34,397 bases of DNA. It comes from a virus. The position numbers were made by a program, and so were the translations under genes. Below the pieces are notes generated by a model. It searched no databases. It was given only the letters and a program-made list of their open reading frames with translations, and was not told the DNA's origin. The stretch spans positions 1 through 34,397 of the IMG/VR virus record IMGVR_UViG_3300042868_005930. One strand, given 5' to 3'. Shown here in pieces: positions 2,019 through 28,733 of this stretch. The first letter of the stretch is position 1. Every line of letters starts with the position of its first letter.

Positions 2019-3908
2019 TTATTGATTTATAATAACTTGAAACCATGTGTGTCTACATGAAGGTGTGTGTACTTTTGTATTTGGGTTAGTGTACCAACCA
2101 CCTTTGTACTCCCAAACATTTCTATCTATACCAGCCGATTTTAAACGAGCTGTAATCATATCAATTTCTTCACGTTTGAATACTTTTTTAGCTGCCAATA
2201 AAGCTTTGCAGAATGGTCTACTTTCACCTTTTAAGGGTGGCGCATCTGTTCTCTCTCTATATTGGTAAACAACTCGAAAGTTTACATTTCCAACATTGCT
2301 TTGACCTTTTGGTGTTAACTCAAAGCCTTTAATCATTCCTAATTTCTCAAGTTCGATTAATTGTTTACTTACATATGTAGCACCTTTGTCTATTGCTTTC
2401 ACGATAGCTCCGTAACTTTCACCGTTGTTAATTAATCCTATTATTTTATTTTGATCTTCTGTTAAAGTGTCAGCAAATTTGTATTTAGAAAGTAATTCTT
2501 TTTCACTCATTTCTAAATTCTTAAAGCTTTTCATTTCTTGAGAATAGATTTCTTTATAGTCAGTCGTTCCGAATTCATTAAACCAGCTTAAAACCGTATT
2601 TTCATCTATTTCGCTAAATGCTTGCCTTGTACCTTGTAATACATCTCCGTTTACAATTGGTGGCAATCCTGCTAAAGCTCTTTGTTCATTGATTGTTAAG
2701 TTAGCTAAAACAGAAGTAGCTAATAAAGGACTCATTTTGTCAATAGTATCAGCTATTTGTGATTTACTTTCAACTTGTTGTGTTAATTGTAAATGTTTCG
2801 GTATAAAAAAGATATTACCAACAAAATTATTAAGCGTATAATGTGCATATTCAAGTGCGTCTGTAATTGTTTTTTGTCTATCTTGAGCGTAATTATTCAT
2901 AAATATTGAATAAGCCGTTTCAAGCTCAGCTGTACCGCCTAATTGACCAGCTGTCTTAACCGAAAATAAAGCGGGATTAATCACTGAATGACCTACCATA
3001 ATCTCGTCAACTATACTTTCTTGAGTTAATAGGTAACGTTGGTCTAAATTATTACCATTAATTTGAACAACACTTGGCGCTGTTTCTTGTGACTTAGAGA
3101 AAGTAACTACAATACCACCTTGTTTATCTCTGTCAGAGCTTTCACCTTTTAATTTAGCTACAATCTTTTTCTTCTCGTCTTGATTGTTTGGCTCACCAGT
3201 TGGCACGTTAATAATTGTCCCACCTTTAAACCCATTCACAACTTCTGAATATCTAAAATAGTTCATTTCAACACTTGCCAAAATTGAACTAATACAACCG
3301 CTATATGATGGAATCGGATAAACTGATTTAGTAAGTTGCTTAGTTCGGTCATCAACTAAATGTTGTTTTGATTTCGCACTAACATATAATAAAACTTCGT
3401 TATCTTGTAAGCTTAATGCTTCTATTGATTTGATTAATTTATATCCTGTCTTTTCTTCGCTTTGGTTTCTTTCTTTCCAATTCTCTGAATATTCGTAATA
3501 CTCTTCATTTGATGATTTTCTAATCAACTCAACTGGAATGTGGTGAGCATCCCAAAATTTAGAGATAGGATTTTTCTTGAATAGAACCGCAAAAGAATTT
3601 AATATTTCTTGATCATTCGCCAACATTACAGCAATCTCATCTAACGAATAAGGTGCGTTTCCGTTCTTCTTTATAAGCTCCCATTTAGCTTTGTCTGTTG
3701 TGTCTGAGTCTAATCCACTTGAAGCAATATATTTCACCTTAGAGTTCACAATTCCTTGGTGTATAGAACTATTATAGTATAGAGATACCAAAAATTGAGG
3801 ATATAAATTATCATTTCCCCAACTGATAAAACTATCACCTCTTTTTTGGTTTTCTACAGGAAGCGGTAAACTTGCTTCGCGAAAAATATATTGATCACTC
3901 ATAGACAT
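2019..3908 (-). CDS. Portal protein with fused winged-helix-like and MuF-like C-terminal region
   Basis: 629 residues. The N-terminal ~430 residues look like a portal: it begins with a WGNDNLYPQFLVSLYYNSS segment, continues with HxGxV-type and GHSVINPALFS motifs, then a long helical crown. After about residue 455 comes a region like a winged helix (core NGESYGAIVKAIDKGATYVS). The last ~70 residues contain SRPFCKALL, GGWY and CRHTW, the Cys/His pattern of Mu gpF/SPP1 gp7-like minor head proteins in this phage group. The portal forms the DNA entry ring in the capsid vertex and docks the terminase. The gene lies downstream of the capsid gene rather than beside the terminase. The start overlaps the preceding ORF by 14 nt. 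Confidence 0.8.
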   Translation of the reverse strand: MSMSDQYIFREASLPLPVENQKRGDSFISWGNDNLYPQFLVSLYYNSSIHQGIVNSKVKYIASSGLDSDTTDKAKWELIKKNGNAPYSLDEIAVMLANDQEILNSFAVLFKKNPISKFWDAHHIPVELIRKSSNEEYYEYSENWKERNQSEEKTGYKLIKSIEALSLQDNEVLLYVSAKSKQHLVDDRTKQLTKSVYPIPSYSGCISSILASVEMNYFRYSEVVNGFKGGTIINVPTGEPNNQDEKKKIVAKLKGESSDRDKQGGIVVTFSKSQETAPSVVQINGNNLDQRYLLTQESIVDEIMVGHSVINPALFSVKTAGQLGGTAELETAYSIFMNNYAQDRQKTITDALEYAHYTLNNFVGNIFFIPKHLQLTQQVESKSQIADTIDKMSPLLATSVLANLTINEQRALAGLPPIVNGDVLQGTRQAFSEIDENTVLSWFNEFGTTDYKEIYSQEMKSFKNLEMSEKELLSKYKFADTLTEDQNKIIGLINNGESYGAIVKAIDKGATYVSKQLIELEKLGMIKGFELTPKGQSNVGNVNFRVVYQYRERTDAPPLKGESRPFCKALLAAKKVFKREEIDMITARLKSAGIDRNVWEYKGGWYTNPNTKVHTPSCRHTWFQVIINQ

Positions 3909-5959: not shown

Positions 5960-6448
5960 TTATTTTTTAGTTAATATTTCTTTCACAGTTAAAGATTTGA
6001 ATTCTTCAACTTTTTTTCTTTCGTCTTTAAATTTAGACTCTTTTACATTTGCCAACTCATTGAATTTGTCTTCTAATGCTTTAAATCTTTCATCAATGTC
6101 ATTGATAATTTTTTCAGTCATAGACGAAAATTCTTCTTTAGACATCATCTCAGGTGCAACTGTTTCTTCTGTAGTTTCTTCAGACATTACTTCTTCTAAT
6201 GCAGTAATAACACCGTTTACGTCAACAGAAACAACCCAAACCTTATCCTCGTACTCAACTTGGAAATCACCTTCAGGTGCAGGGATTTGGTTTTTTTCTA
6301 CGTCTAATACAAAAACAGGAGTACCTACAGCCAAGTCACCTTCATAATATAAAGTGATGCCATCGATTGTTTGAACTTCTGAAAATGCAATCTTTACTTC
6401 CTCTTCTTTCTTGAAAAAATCGAAAATAGATTTTACTTGTTTGTTCAT
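5960..6448 (-). CDS. Capsid scaffold-like protein
   Basis: 162 residues in two parts. Residues about 20-85 form a beta-rich unit (DGITLYYEGDLAVGTPVFVLD), and residues about 88-155 are a charged coiled-coil (SMTEKIINDIDERFKALEDKF). It stands between the protease (6 nt away) and the capsid gene (8 nt away). Acidic N-terminal domain plus coiled-coil C-terminus between protease and capsid is the classic scaffold position. Inferred role: internal scaffold removed during prohead maturation. Confidence 0.65.
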   Translation of the reverse strand: MNKQVKSIFDFFKKEEEVKIAFSEVQTIDGITLYYEGDLAVGTPVFVLDVEKNQIPAPEGDFQVEYEDKVWVVSVDVNGVITALEEVMSEETTEETVAPEMMSKEEFSSMTEKIINDIDERFKALEDKFNELANVKESKFKDERKKVEEFKSLTVKEILTKK

Positions 6449-22546: not shown

Positions 22547-22554
22547 CAAATATA
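22547..22554 (-). promoter_or_regulatory. Candidate promoter before the tRNA
   Basis: TATATTTG on the minus strand (22554-22547), fitting TAnnTTTG, lies 32 bases before the tRNA 5' end, in the gap after the ninG stop. It should drive the tRNA and the downstream small genes. Confidence 0.5.
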
Positions 22555-24572: not shown

Positions 24573-25556
24573 TTAAAAAGGACAGTCTTCGTCTTTAATT
24601 GGTTCTATAAATTTATACTCGTTTACTTCCCTACCTATATTCATTAAATTGGCTGGTTTAGGTATTTCTTCTTTTGGTATATGTAAATTAGTTTGTATGT
24701 TTTCTGGTCGTTTAATACAATCTTTTCCATTGCATTTAAAACCATAGCCATAATTATAATCAAAAAAAACAGGTTGATCTAATAAGGTTTGTTTTCCTCC
24801 TGTATCAGTATCTTTTACTTTTTGCACTTCAACAAGCGTTGTAAACTTTAAATCTTTATGTCCATTTAACCTATGAATAACTAAAAAATCATCTGCTTTA
24901 TTTGAAAATGCTTTACCACCTTCAATATCGGCTTTAAATGGAGCTGTTAAATGACCTTCCCAACTATGCCCTTTTGGATATACTGCATTTCTTCTACCAC
25001 TTGCAGTGGCTGGGTGTGCATTTATGTATATTGTTTTATTAGTCTTTTTGCAAAACATTTTTAAATCATTTAACACATCATAGTTTCCTGAGTATGTTAA
25101 AGAAGTTTTTAAAGCATTAAAAGGATCAATTAAACAAACATCTGTATTTGCATCTTCAAACACTTTTAAAAGGTCTTCAGGTGTATATCTAAGCTTATTA
25201 TCTACAAATTTAAAATAATACTCTAATTTGATTATTCCTTTCTCAATTTCGAGATTAGTCATTTGTTCAATAGGCTTAGCATAATACATCTTTAACATAT
25301 CTCTAATCACTTTATATGAAGCATTTTCATCCATAAATAAAGTAAAAGTTAAATTATGATTAGTTGCAAGTGCTAAAAAATACCACTCCATAAAGTAAGT
25401 TTTACCTACGTTATCATGTCCTAAAGCAAAGTTTAATTGACCTTGTTTATGAACAAAGAACTCATCAAAATAAATATTTAATCCAAGTCCTTTTGGTATC
25501 AATCCATTTTTATAATCTAAAATAGATTGTAAACTATGTCCGTCTTTAAGTATCAT
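24573..25556 (-). CDS. RecA-fold replicative helicase-like ATPase (RepA/DnaB type)
   Basis: 327 residues. Walker A is GHDNVGKT at 46-53, Walker B VCLIDP at 140-145, followed by a HPATASG segment that could act as sensor. This AAA_25/RepA-like layout is that of phage replicative helicases and their single-domain relatives. It follows the initiator gene by ATGA overlap, the same order as lambda O and P or other phage initiator-helicase pairs. The C-terminus ends EPIKDEDCPF, an acidic tip resembling the SSB docking tail, which is unusual for a helicase. It should unwind DNA at the origin. Confidence 0.8.
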   Translation of the reverse strand: MILKDGHSLQSILDYKNGLIPKGLGLNIYFDEFFVHKQGQLNFALGHDNVGKTYFMEWYFLALATNHNLTFTLFMDENASYKVIRDMLKMYYAKPIEQMTNLEIEKGIIKLEYYFKFVDNKLRYTPEDLLKVFEDANTDVCLIDPFNALKTSLTYSGNYDVLNDLKMFCKKTNKTIYINAHPATASGRRNAVYPKGHSWEGHLTAPFKADIEGGKAFSNKADDFLVIHRLNGHKDLKFTTLVEVQKVKDTDTGGKQTLLDQPVFFDYNYGYGFKCNGKDCIKRPENIQTNLHIPKEEIPKPANLMNIGREVNEYKFIEPIKDEDCPF

Positions 25557-26224
25557 GATTTATAGTTTTTAAGTATTTGTTCTTCTATACTTAAATCTTC
25601 ATCTTTTTTTATACCAAAATTAGGATTAGTTTCCCTTCTACGTTTTATCCAGTTTTGAATAGTAAGATTAACAGAATTATTTTTTTTAGTCAATTCTTTT
25701 GAATTTTCCATTGATTCTAATATATCTTTAATTGCAAACCTATCATATTTACTAAGAAGTTTTTTAGCTTGTTCATTTGTTAATTGAATTGATAATTTAG
25801 ATACATTTTTTAAATCATTTTGAATCCAAAAACAAAGTGGATGCATCTCTATATTATTATTAGTAGTATTAATAGTAGTATTATTGGGTAAAGTTTCTTT
25901 ACTACCCCCCAGTAAAGTTTCTTTACTACCCCTGTTAAGATTCTTTACTACCCCTAAAGAAATTTTATACCTATTAAAACTAACCCCATTAATAGTATTT
26001 ACATTCTTAATAATTAGGTTTTTTTCAGTTAAAAACTTTAATGATTTTATAGCGGTAGGGCGTGAACAATTAAGCCACTTACATAGATAATTAATAGAAC
26101 CAGTAAACTCTGTTTCACCATCTTGAGAAAAGCCATAAATAAGTGCATATGTAAGTAAGTCATTACCTGACAAATTCAATTCTGAAACCATCCAGCCTTG
26201 AATAACTAAATAATTGTCTTTCAT
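25553..26224 (-). CDS. Replication initiator with N-terminal winged helix (lambda O/DnaD-like)
   Basis: 223 residues. Residues 1-85 look like a replication-protein wHTH (VIQGWMVSELNLSGNDLLTY; INYLCKWLNCSRPTAIKSLK). Residues 91-113 are a Gly/Ser/Lys/Glu/Thr linker translated from three iteron-like repeats (25888-25954). The C-terminal ~90 residues resemble a helicase-loading domain with DILESMENS. The order wHTH, repeat-encoded linker and partner-binding domain is the same as in lambda O. It begins by TAATG overlap with the 58-codon gene and ends by ATGA overlap with the helicase. It should bind the repeats and load the downstream helicase. Confidence 0.75.
   Translation of the reverse strand: MKDNYLVIQGWMVSELNLSGNDLLTYALIYGFSQDGETEFTGSINYLCKWLNCSRPTAIKSLKFLTEKNLIIKNVNTINGVSFNRYKISLGVVKNLNRGSKETLLGGSKETLPNNTTINTTNNNIEMHPLCFWIQNDLKNVSKLSIQLTNEQAKKLLSKYDRFAIKDILESMENSKELTKKNNSVNLTIQNWIKRRRETNPNFGIKKDEDLSIEEQILKNYKS
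25888..25954 (-). repeat. Three iteron-like repeats inside the initiator gene (candidate origin)
   Basis: Plus-strand copies GTAAAGTTTCTTTACTACCC at 25888 and 25912 are perfect; the copy at 25934 is GTTAAGATTCTTTACTACCC. Starts are 24 and 22 bases apart. Each perfect copy holds the palindrome GTAAAG-TTT-CTTTAC. An AT-rich tract (about 25852-25886) lies on one side. This is the lambda ori pattern. Confidence 0.65.
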
Positions 26225-26400
26225 TATTGCATTTCTTTATGTAATAAATGTAAAGCACCAATTAAATGATAAATATCTTTTTTAGATAAATAAGCATTAA
26301 CAGGATTTTCATTTTCATCAAGGATTGAAAAACTAATTGTTTTTTCATTGAATTGCTCGACTTCCATAGTCGTTGCTTCATCTTGAAATTTGTAAATCAT
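26224..26400 (-). CDS. Small acidic protein (58 aa) before the initiator
   Basis: ATG at 26400; its TAA overlaps the initiator ATG (TAATG). The product (MIYKFQDEATTMEVEQFN, then FSILDENENPVNAYLSK and a helical C-terminus) has normal coding composition. It is the first ORF behind the terminator-like structure at 26430-26476, so its expression depends on read-through or on the ~90-nt RNA. Function unknown; coupling suggests a replication-related role or a translational control of the initiator. Confidence 0.75.
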   Translation of the reverse strand: MIYKFQDEATTMEVEQFNEKTISFSILDENENPVNAYLSKKDIYHLIGALHLLHKEMQ

Positions 26401-26423
26401 AAATAAATAAATTTTTGGTTAAT

Positions 26424-26476
26424 AAAAAAACCCCTTTGACTTTCGCGGCTCTCACCTCGCTACTCATCAAAAGGGT
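26424..26476 (-). terminator. Intrinsic terminator with long loop, part of the structured RNA
   Basis: Stem 26476-26467 with 26439-26430 (10 bp), 27-nt loop that contains segment a', followed by TTTTTTT (26430-26424, the first paired). It lies 24 bases before the 58-codon gene. Confidence 0.7.
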
Positions 26477-26516
26477 AAATTCAATTTCTTTAAGTTCTAT
26501 AGTGTGAGAGCGAACC
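26424..26516 (-). ncRNA. Candidate structured RNA (~90 nt) with own promoter and terminator
   Basis: Behind TATATTTG (26530-26523) the minus strand holds segment a GCTCTCAC (26511-26504), b ACCCTTTTGA (26476-26467), a' GTGAGAGC (26455-26448) and b' TCAAAGGGGT (26439-26430), then T7. a pairs perfectly with a' (8 bp) and b with b' (10 bp, one G-U), in order a-b-a'-b', giving an H-type pseudoknot or two alternative folds. The T7 after b' makes the b stem a terminator. Either a free RNA or an attenuator leader of the initiator operon. Confidence 0.6.
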
Positions 26517-26522
26517 GATACA

Positions 26523-26530
26523 CAAATATA
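26523..26530 (-). promoter_or_regulatory. Probable promoter (TATATTTG) of the structured RNA
   Basis: Minus-strand TATATTTG fits TAnnTTTG; 19 nt upstream is TTC, two of three TTG bases. It lies 28 bases after the helicase-methyltransferase stop. Confidence 0.55.
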
Positions 26531-26558: not shown

Positions 26559-28733
26559 TTAAAATAATGTTTGTTGTTTCTTTTTTTCCTCTACATTTGA
26601 TAGATTTTTAACGGCGATATCAAAATAATTTTCTTTTAATTCAACTCCTAAATATCTTCTATTATTTTCAATTGATACATAACCTTCAGTACCTATTCCA
26701 TTAAATGGACTAAATACTAAATCGTTTGAATTTGTATAAAGTTCTAAAAGTCTTTTAATAGGCTCTTTTTGCGTAGGTGTCATATGTTTTTCATCATGTT
26801 CAGCTTTAGCCTCTCTAATACTTAAAACATCACTTGCATCTATTTCACCTTCCAACCAAATAGGTTCTGCAATTTTACACCAATAATCAAAGGGTAATCC
26901 ATTTTTATCATGGTTAACAGGGAATTCATTCACTCCATCTTTTTTGAAAGTTAATAAATAATCAGGGAATCCCATTCTATTAACTGTACTATCTTTTTTG
27001 GTAGTTGCGTGTAATAGTTGCATATTCTTTGTACGTTGTGCTATAATTTTAGGATCTTTCCAAATAGCTACTTCAGCATGAAAAGTCCATCCATATTTTT
27101 GCATTGCTCTAATTAAATCACCTCTAAAATCAATTATCTCTAATTTTCCATCTCTACCTTTTGATTTACTTAATTGAGTACAGTGCATTGACAATAACCG
27201 ACCTTCTTTTGTAATTCTTAATAACTCTGGAATCATAAATTCAAAATGTTTAAAAAAGTCTTCATAGCTTTTATTATTGCTTAGATCTCGCGGATCGTTT
27301 GAATACATATACAAGTCACTAAATGGAGGTGAAAAAAAAGTATAATCAATTGAATTATCTTTAATTGTTGTTATATACTGAGTACTATCCCCATTTACTA
27401 AAGTCCAATTAATACCTTTTTCAGTTCTGAAATTTTCATCAGTTGCATGAATATTTGAATTAGATTCATTCATTGCTCTTTGCATTTCTTTTTGCATATT
27501 CTCAAATTTTAATTGTTTATCTTTTATTGCTTCAATTACATTACCCATAGTTTCTACAGTTATTAAGGTAACATTTACATTATTTTTTTGACCAAACCTC
27601 CAACTCCTTCTAATAGCTTGATATAAACCTTCAAAACTAAAATCAAATGATAGGAATATTTGATTTTTACAGTGTTGATAATTCAATCCGAATTGAGCTA
27701 TTTTAGTTTTAGTCACTAAGATTCTAAAATCATTATTTGCAAAGCCTAATAATCTTTTTTCTTTTATCTCAGGTTTATCACTACCGTTAACAGCTACCGC
27801 TTCAGGAACTAAAGAAAGTAGTTCTTTTTCTTCTTCATTTGATTTTATCCAAACAATAAAACTTTCATTTGAATTATTAAGTATTTCAACAACTGCTTTA
27901 ACCCTGTTTTCCTGAGTTACTTTTAATTCTTTATAAAAGTCAGTTGCACTAACTTTAATATCATTAAATAGTTTACCGTTATTTTGCTTTTCAACAGCTA
28001 TTTGTAATTCATTCATAAATAATTCTGGTAATACATAACCTTTTCCTAAATAACCAATATCACTTGGATTGCTTAGCATTAAAGACCAGCTACCAACCCA
28101 ATTCCAAAAGTCTTTAATAGAATGTTTTTTAAGTCTCCATTTACTTATAGTGTGATCTTTATTGAAAGCATCATTAATAAAAAAAATAGAAACCATTTCT
28201 TTTGATGTCATAACGTTTAAAAACTCCGCATGATTACCTAATTCAATATGATCATTTGGTGAAGGTGTTGCAGTACATGCTAATTTATATTTGTGATCCT
28301 TAAAAGTATCTAAAATAAGTTGTTTTGTACTTCCGTTGTAATTCTTTAAAATAGAACTTTCATCTAATACAACACCTGAATAAATACTGCAATCTATTTT
28401 ACTTAATTGCTCATAGTTTGTAATATCAAAACTATTCAAATCAATACCAAACTTATTAGCTTCTTGTTTAGTTTGACCACTAACAGCCAAAGGTGCTAAT
28501 ATTAATACTTTCTTGCCAGTGTAATTATATACTTCATTTGCCCATGATAACTGCATTAAAGTTTTACCTAAACCACAATCTGCAAAAATTGCAAATCTAC
28601 CCTTTTTTAATGCTGTCTTAACAATAAACCTTTGAAAATCAAATAAGTTTTTATTTAACTTACTTTCTTCAATCTCAAAACCACTTTCTATAAATGATTT
28701 TCTTTTGCTTTCTAAAAATTGCTTATATTCCAT
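26559..28733 (-). CDS. SNF2-like helicase fused to N4/N6 DNA methyltransferase
   Basis: 724 residues. The helicase part has Walker A DCGLGKT (52-58), motif II DESS (124-127), motif III TATPSP (154-159) and motif VI QAIRRSWRFGQ (372-382). The methyltransferase part has catalytic SPPF at 468-471 and the AdoMet-binding FSPFNGIGTEG at about 674-684, so the motif order is that of a beta-class N4-cytosine/N6-adenine enzyme. The C-terminus ends KKKQQTLF, which resembles the QxxLF clamp-binding motif. Such fusions in phages may combine remodelling with self-methylation against restriction. A candidate promoter is at 28750-28757. Confidence 0.85.
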   Translation of the reverse strand: MEYKQFLESKRKSFIESGFEIEESKLNKNLFDFQRFIVKTALKKGRFAIFADCGLGKTLMQLSWANEVYNYTGKKVLILAPLAVSGQTKQEANKFGIDLNSFDITNYEQLSKIDCSIYSGVVLDESSILKNYNGSTKQLILDTFKDHKYKLACTATPSPNDHIELGNHAEFLNVMTSKEMVSIFFINDAFNKDHTISKWRLKKHSIKDFWNWVGSWSLMLSNPSDIGYLGKGYVLPELFMNELQIAVEKQNNGKLFNDIKVSATDFYKELKVTQENRVKAVVEILNNSNESFIVWIKSNEEEKELLSLVPEAVAVNGSDKPEIKEKRLLGFANNDFRILVTKTKIAQFGLNYQHCKNQIFLSFDFSFEGLYQAIRRSWRFGQKNNVNVTLITVETMGNVIEAIKDKQLKFENMQKEMQRAMNESNSNIHATDENFRTEKGINWTLVNGDSTQYITTIKDNSIDYTFFSPPFSDLYMYSNDPRDLSNNKSYEDFFKHFEFMIPELLRITKEGRLLSMHCTQLSKSKGRDGKLEIIDFRGDLIRAMQKYGWTFHAEVAIWKDPKIIAQRTKNMQLLHATTKKDSTVNRMGFPDYLLTFKKDGVNEFPVNHDKNGLPFDYWCKIAEPIWLEGEIDASDVLSIREAKAEHDEKHMTPTQKEPIKRLLELYTNSNDLVFSPFNGIGTEGYVSIENNRRYLGVELKENYFDIAVKNLSNVEEKKKQQTLF

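Follow-up and report, generated by a model that had tools for sequence, protein, structure and literature searches.

A kissing-loop RNA with its own terminator ahead of replication genes in phages of Flavobacteriia

The RNA and the genes around it

The window, i.e. the whole stretch of DNA analysed, is a viral contig of 34,397 bases that is similar to Flavobacterium phages and carries almost all of its genes on the minus strand. Reading this strand from 26530 to 26424, we found a Bacteroidota-type promoter (TATATTTG), followed by a predicted ~93-nt RNA with a U7-tailed terminator at its end. The elements of this gap and the genes downstream are as follows.

26559-28733 and 26224-26400: SNF2-helicase/N6-N4-methyltransferase gene and 58-codon gene, between which lies the gap hosting the RNA (from the sequence)
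26523-26530, minus: promoter -7 element TATATTTG, Bacteroidota TAnnTTTG type (from the sequence)
26424-26516, minus: RNA of ~93 nt, its 5' end predicted from promoter spacing and its 3' end from the U run
26493-26516, minus: P1 hairpin, arms 26516-26512 (GGUUC; DNA GGTTC) and 26497-26493 (GAACU; DNA GAACT), with kissing strand a in its loop (from the structure scanner)
26504-26511, minus: kissing strand a in the P1 loop, DNA GCTCTCAC, RNA GCUCUCAC (from pairing with a')
26477-26492, minus: A-rich linker UAAAGAAAUUGAAUUU from P1 to P2 (from the sequence)
26466-26476, minus: 5' arm of P2, including b, ACCCTTTTGA (26476-26467; from pairing with b')
26445-26460, minus: P3 hairpin inside P2, arms 26460-26458 (GCG) and 26447-26445 (CGC), with a' in its loop
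26448-26455, minus: kissing strand a' in the P3 loop, DNA GTGAGAGC, RNA GUGAGAGC (from pairing with a)
26424-26440, minus: 3' arm of P2, including b', TCAAAGGGGT (26439-26430), and the U7 tract (T7 at 26430-26424), together an intrinsic-type terminator (from the sequence)
26224-26400, minus: 58-codon gene, start codon 23 nt past the U run
25553-26224, minus: replication initiator or DnaD-like helicase loader (HTH_36; PHROGs 'DnaD-like helicase loader', 'replication initiation protein' and 'replication initiation O-like')
24573-25556, minus: replicative helicase, the helicase part of a phage primase/helicase (PHROGs 'DNA primase/helicase')

On the minus strand the whole element reads TATATTTG - 6 nt - GGUUC(GCUCUCAC)ACUAUAGAACU - UAAAGAAAUUGAAUUU - ACCCUUUUGAU - GAGUA GCG AG(GUGAGAGC)CGC GAAA - GUCAAAGGGGU UUUUUU, where the parts in parentheses pair with each other. 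An earlier note on this DNA had proposed the promoter element at 26523-26530, the T7-tailed terminator stem and two long pairings interlocked in the order a-b-a'-b', all of which are present. It had called both pairings perfect, which holds for the 8 bp of a/a'; the 10-bp b/b' contains one U-G wobble. Two helices that it did not mention, P1 and P3, complete the fold. Since a lies in the P1 loop and a' in the P3 loop, a/a' is an intramolecular kissing loop of 8 bp, and b/b' the terminator stem. The pseudoknot suggested earlier thus takes the form of a kissing loop, so that the two helices can coexist instead of acting as alternatives. The a/a' duplex alone is worth about -10 to -15 kcal/mol. 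P2 and P3 are separated by an AGUA/GAA internal loop (26462-26442), which recurs in loci L003, L013, L025, L027, L121:40354 and L130:33901. It resembles the loop-E (bulged-G) motif and is a possible protein or tertiary contact site.

Nearly all relatives of the RNA are preceded by TATATTTG or a near TAnnTTTG form. A TTG triplet lies 17-28 nt upstream in 35/68 relatives, compared with 371/1627 background TAnnTTTG sites; the -33 box of the window RNA promoter is poor. Elsewhere in the window, a tRNA gene (Rfam RF00005; 22428-22514, minus strand) lies downstream of another TATATTTG promoter, at 22554.

Conserved structure and switching kissing sequences

About 60 distinct RNAs of the same layout, each some 80-105 letters long, occur in contigs of uncultivated phages, many of these loci being related to one another and several records being fragments. 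Loci encoding the 58-aa protein were fetched through protein similarity alone, and further loci through methyltransferase relatives or a DNA pattern of the RNA 5' end. The 58-aa protein has 26 relatives in viral contigs, and the RNA architecture is found immediately upstream in 26/26, one copy being truncated by the contig end. The U run is also present in the relatives gathered by protein, not just in those selected by the structure scanner. The product of the 58-codon gene itself has no Pfam or PHROG match.

The subtypes, namely type B (including the window RNA), type A and further ones whose internal loop is of the loop-E-like AGUA/GAA kind, share almost no stem sequence, and their common layout may go back to descent or to convergence. 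Type A RNAs have the layout GAAG-CGUGAGAA-CUUC ... AAGGU-UUUCUCACGC-ACCUU. The linker is GAAAWW-like and 13-22 nt long in the representatives that were measured, and longer in some type A RNAs; P3 is seen in nearly all relatives drawn. In the nearest relative, L016, CGU replaces CGC in P3 and a G-U pair is retained. A type B model (R1), of which the window itself is part, matches 26423-26530 with an E value of 3.2e-19. Direct BLAST searches of the RNA against phages and plasmids gave chance-level or no matches because sequence is not conserved between subtypes, and a search of viral contigs with a type B pattern gave no match. In L003, whose methyltransferase is 90% identical, an ordinary short terminator follows after position 6172, without a kissing RNA after that gene; a type C RNA occurs at another site of this locus (L003:487-588, minus).

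Taken by itself, the window RNA folds only mildly better than its shuffles (z = -1.76), as could be expected of chance complementarity next to an ordinary terminator. A simple terminator scan of the window also failed to detect the P2 terminator, owing to its long loop. Comparison with relatives leaves practically no room for chance. The covariation score of the relatives (12 of type B, 29 of type A) was reached by 0/500 shuffles, and compensatory changes, whose absence the earlier note had named as a refutation, are abundant in P1, P2 and P3, and most of all in a/a'. Among the 12 type B sequences, pairing of a/a' holds in 99% of cells, and 7/8 pairs have changed on both sides; such double-sided changes affect 3/5 pairs of P1 and 6/10 of P2. 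Among the 29 type A sequences, 100% of cells are paired in the kissing helix, which has compensatory changes in 4/6 pairs (7/10 in P2 and 3/5 in P3), with 88 double-change cells versus 24.0 +/- 4.4 in shuffles. Complementarity of at least 7 nt between a and a' was found in 20/21 own pairings but only 39/420 mismatched ones, in a set of 21 chosen by protein or position and not by structure. Lastly, the structure scanner gives the window RNA a score of 39.0, whereas 1.44 Mb of dinucleotide-shuffled phage sequence yielded 11 hits, none above 32.0. Chance complementarity is refuted by the compensatory changes in the relatives, and it is further contradicted by the scanner control, by the comparison of own with mismatched pairings and by the isolates described below. 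We dropped two scanner hits in L046/L051 and the low-scoring ones in B40-8, phi38:1 and FCV-1 (19091), which we judged spurious. A hammerhead-like string in the window (UGAUGAG...CGAAAG) is, by eye, not conserved in the relatives.

The kissing sequences vary in a particular manner. Those of type A are mainly three (CGUGAG, CGUAGG and CGUGG), which recur on different backbones. Pairs of RNAs with one change in ~61-66 backbone nt differ at three to four positions in the kissing strands, always on both sides (L067 vs L068, L070 and L065; L017 vs L021; L021 vs L083); these comparisons are not independent of one another, and the search pattern limited the alleles that could be seen. It is thus mostly the kissing helix that changes, and it does so without losing its complementarity. 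We also observed that type A and type B RNAs swap between near-identical flanks before the same small gene (L041:988-1095 vs L044:788-891 and L045), as if they were exchanged like a cassette.

Placement in the replication module and occurrence in isolates

Among 62 distinct RNAs, 57 have a gene for a replication protein (initiator or helicase loader, primase, or helicase) among the next three same-strand ORFs, and in 51 it is the second ORF. For type A RNAs found by their 5'-end pattern alone, a replication gene is nearby in 32/38 cases, versus 24/89 for control promoter-like sites of the same contigs (Fisher p = 2.9e-9). The downstream initiators are of many non-homologous sorts. The first ORF after the RNA usually codes for a 58-82 aa protein without known function. 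The small proteins of 58-72 aa found there (window 26224-26400; MIYKF.., MVSLKF.., MAVQLKF..) are of unknown family and have similar C-terminal ends (LIGALHLLHKE / TAIKLSKELRKQI); they possibly represent one fold linked to the RNA. Genes for NUMOD4/HNH endonucleases often follow the RNA directly, or sometimes lie between the RNA and the primase gene (L121:40354, from FCV-1; L082:9151; L049:3694; L053; L054; L096).

The sequence of the RNA was read directly in eight isolates whose hosts belong to Flavobacterium, Tenacibaculum, Polaribacter, Croceibacter and Cellulophaga: FCV-1, JQ, elemoA, 11b, P12002L, P2559S, Nekkels_1 and phi18:3. This makes nine isolate copies if the second RNA of FCV-1 is counted. 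As an out-of-sample rule, in isolates FCV-1, JQ and elemo we turned first to the gap ahead of the replication genes. That gap contains an RNA of unrelated sequence in Flavobacterium phage FCV-1 (kissing strands GUAGAGAG/CUCUCUAC), in Tenacibaculum phage JQ (AGCAUCCUAC/GUAGGAUGCU, 10 bp) and in the podophage elemoA (UGAGAGC/GCUCUCA). FCV-1 represents dozens of near-identical F. columnare phages, and its second RNA copy precedes an HNH endonuclease gene. The structure scanner found the RNAs of Flavobacterium phage 11b, of Polaribacter phage P12002L, directly ahead of an annotated primosomal protein gene, and of Cellulophaga phage phi18:3, where it is followed by a 69-aa gene and then by a gene annotated as DnaD-like helicase loader. 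The RNA of phi18:3 lies near position 3183 of NC_021794, on the minus strand. With the tail rule slightly relaxed, the RNA of Croceibacter phage P2559S reaches a score of just 32.0, so that its assignment rests on position and motif; the other scored isolates range from 35.5 to 46. In Cellulophaga phage Nekkels_1 (L129:18432-18570) an elaborated form with a long P2 was recognised by eye. A second long-range pairing, GUCUAAC/GUUAGAC, was observed there beside AUUGGAA/UUCCAAU. No convincing RNA turned up in scans of phi38:1 (under the relaxed rule), P12024S, B40-8 and portions of two further Bacteroides phages.

The ~60 contig RNAs and those of the isolates share the TAnnTTTG promoter, P1, the linker, P2 with P3, kissing loops of 6-10 bp and a nearby replication gene on the same strand. 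At the gathering threshold of Rfam release 15, there was no match at the RNA in the window or in nine relative loci, including FCV-1, JQ, 11b, phi18:3, P2559S and P12002L; at E values up to 10, the best sub-threshold matches of the window RNA were at chance level. Full-text searches retrieved no description of such an RNA from a literature covered incompletely, so that an earlier description elsewhere is possible. This class of kissing-loop RNAs is undescribed in Rfam and in the literature searched. None of 84,980 bacterial and archaeal genomes contains the type A pattern, an absence that points to lytic phages and does not suggest prophages; a protein search of genomes with the helicase gave no match.

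The RNA is a single copy per genome in most contigs and keeps a constant place beside the replication genes whatever the initiator type. With the AT-rich DNA after the U run, this might designate it as an origin-associated RNA that opens the DNA or primes at an origin by the initiator gene, the folded RNA and the U run positioning the 3' end. We consider such a role improbable: GC skew shows no switch at the site, no iteron or hybrid-forming run was noted, some phages have two copies, and the switching of kissing alleles would be left unexplained.

The distances on either side are short. Upstream, the preceding gene usually ends 4-30 nt ahead of the promoter, and a real terminator is present. 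P2 could thus be a passive terminator at a module boundary that ends upstream transcription before the promoter restarts it, the remaining fold protecting the 3' end of the upstream mRNA. To this idea we give little credence: simple terminators do that job elsewhere in these phages, as in L003, a promoter ahead and covarying kissing loops inside would be needless, and the loops show recurrent double changes. Downstream, the U run is followed by the next start codon after 7-50 nt in 61/62 cases, which is too short for another full promoter. The operon must therefore be read through the terminator, from the RNA's own promoter or from one upstream.

Possible roles and known RNAs

Abundant compensatory changes and a position at the replication module across phages support the earlier proposal of a short, pseudoknot-containing RNA or attenuator that either stands alone or serves as a leader for control of the 58-codon gene and the initiator. 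The reading that we favour, with about an even chance of being right, is that of an operon leader or attenuator with its own promoter, in which kissing sets readthrough and terminated copies may act in trans. A self-contained leader with promoter, terminator and complementary loops before replication genes fits regulated termination. The ~93-nt RNA would be made from its own promoter, at the start of the operon for phage replication, and would fold into the P1 hairpin, the A-rich linker and the P2 terminator stem capped by P3, with 8 bp between the P1 and P3 loops. The majority of transcripts would end at P2/U7, and a fraction would extend across the small gene and on through the initiator and helicase genes. 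This fraction would depend on whether kissing precedes the closing of P2. The kissing strands, being transcribed before the 3' arm of the terminator, can pair first and either delay or favour P2. Terminated copies, which bear the same complementary loops, could pair with new leaders in trans and thereby generate a copy-number-dependent feedback; this would explain why the kissing letters diversify while remaining self-complementary. Since the letters change but the shape is strictly preserved, the kissing RNA probably helps to set the timing of replication-gene switch-on. We looked by eye for a conserved antiterminator helix between the linker and b that would compete with P2 and noticed none, so that a classical two-state attenuator is not evident.

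Several observations count against a leader. The downstream genes are members of long arrays on the same strand, which promoters further upstream could serve, many different first genes follow the RNA, which is also compatible with a trans-acting RNA, and several copies are away from replication genes, such as the FCV-1 copy before the HNH gene. The RNA might instead be a stand-alone phage sRNA that acts in trans, e.g. by binding a host or phage protein or RNA, with the operon read from upstream promoters and the adjacency to replication genes incidental. This alternative is rather unlikely in our view. It would account for the complete transcription unit with promoter and terminator, the occurrence of one RNA type ahead of unrelated first genes, the conserved A-rich linker and the copies ahead of non-replication genes; it sits poorly with the strong bias to the replication module and the short same-strand gap to the next start codon. 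Moreover, the loops vary freely provided that their mutual pairing is kept, which speaks against their having a fixed trans target, and a search of the window for phage targets of segment a, which the earlier note had envisaged, found the GCTCTCAC 8-mer nowhere else.

Two other RNAs recall parts of this element. In the Pistol ribozyme, the loop of a 5' hairpin base-pairs within a stem-loop further downstream, and there is an A-rich linker. The likeness is one of topology only, since a' here is in a hairpin loop rather than an internal loop and P2 is a terminator; Rfam gave no match to Pistol at any threshold tried. The lambda oop RNA is a small terminated phage RNA adjoining the replication initiator gene. 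It differs from the RNA described here in being encoded on the opposite strand, antisense to cII, and in lacking the kissing architecture.

Closer parallels exist in temperate phages and plasmids. In the part of PMC4825925 that deals with IsrK, this RNA is laid out as promoter, sRNA, terminator and readthrough mRNA, and its short form acts in trans on the readthrough transcript. A promoter, a short RNA, an intrinsic terminator and a same-strand gene soon after are likewise found here, with the 7-50 nt gap noted above. IsrK differs in belonging to a temperate enterobacterial prophage and in activating translation in an antirepressor/antiterminator pathway, not of replication genes, and a self-kissing terminator loop with covarying alleles is not described for it in that part of the source (PMC4825925). 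The CI RNA of satellite phage P4, as presented in the corresponding part of the same source, is a short leader RNA that is complementary to seqA and seqC of the same leader and stops transcription of the replication operon (PMC4825925). Complementary segments within a replication-operon leader have their counterpart here in a/a', with its compensatory changes and downstream replication genes. Unlike our RNA, the CI RNA arises by processing of a longer transcript rather than by termination at a site of its own, and it serves lysogenic immunity, whereas the searches made gave no sign of lysogeny for the phages studied here. By analogy, the RNA is most likely similar in logic to IsrK or the P4 CI RNA.

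The ColE1 RNAI/RNAII, pT181 attenuator and IncI/IncK RNAI (pseudoknot-controlled rep) systems also have an RNA ahead of the replication initiator and loop-loop kissing, and single loop letters can define compatibility in plasmid RNAI (PMC10724649). In plasmid copy control, however, the loop pairs with an antisense RNA made from the opposite strand, while both loops here are in one sense-strand RNA; a search of the plus strand within 26424-26530 for promoters of the TAnnTTTG type found none. On this background we tentatively propose a self-complementary leader that would meter its own operon. Nascent and terminated copies would pair via interchangeable loops, thus counting phage genomes and closing or opening replication-gene expression, and the kissing letters (GUGAG, GUAGG, GUGGA and others) would be compatibility groups, with diversifying selection between co-infecting lytic phages driving their switching. 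If true, such a leader would be a counterpart of plasmid incompatibility made by RNA alone, with no separate antisense gene.

Podo- and siphophages infecting several genera of Flavobacteriia thus have in common an undescribed structured RNA, which may serve as a handle for locating the replication operon in flavophage genomes. It offers a compact natural case of a terminator that incorporates a kissing loop, its dozens of compensatory variants found in nature lend themselves to studies of structure and termination, and the switching of alleles leads to a clear, testable prediction on interference between co-infecting phages. As the RNA is kept ahead of mutually non-homologous replication proteins, it would do something generic for phage DNA replication, which it may well control.
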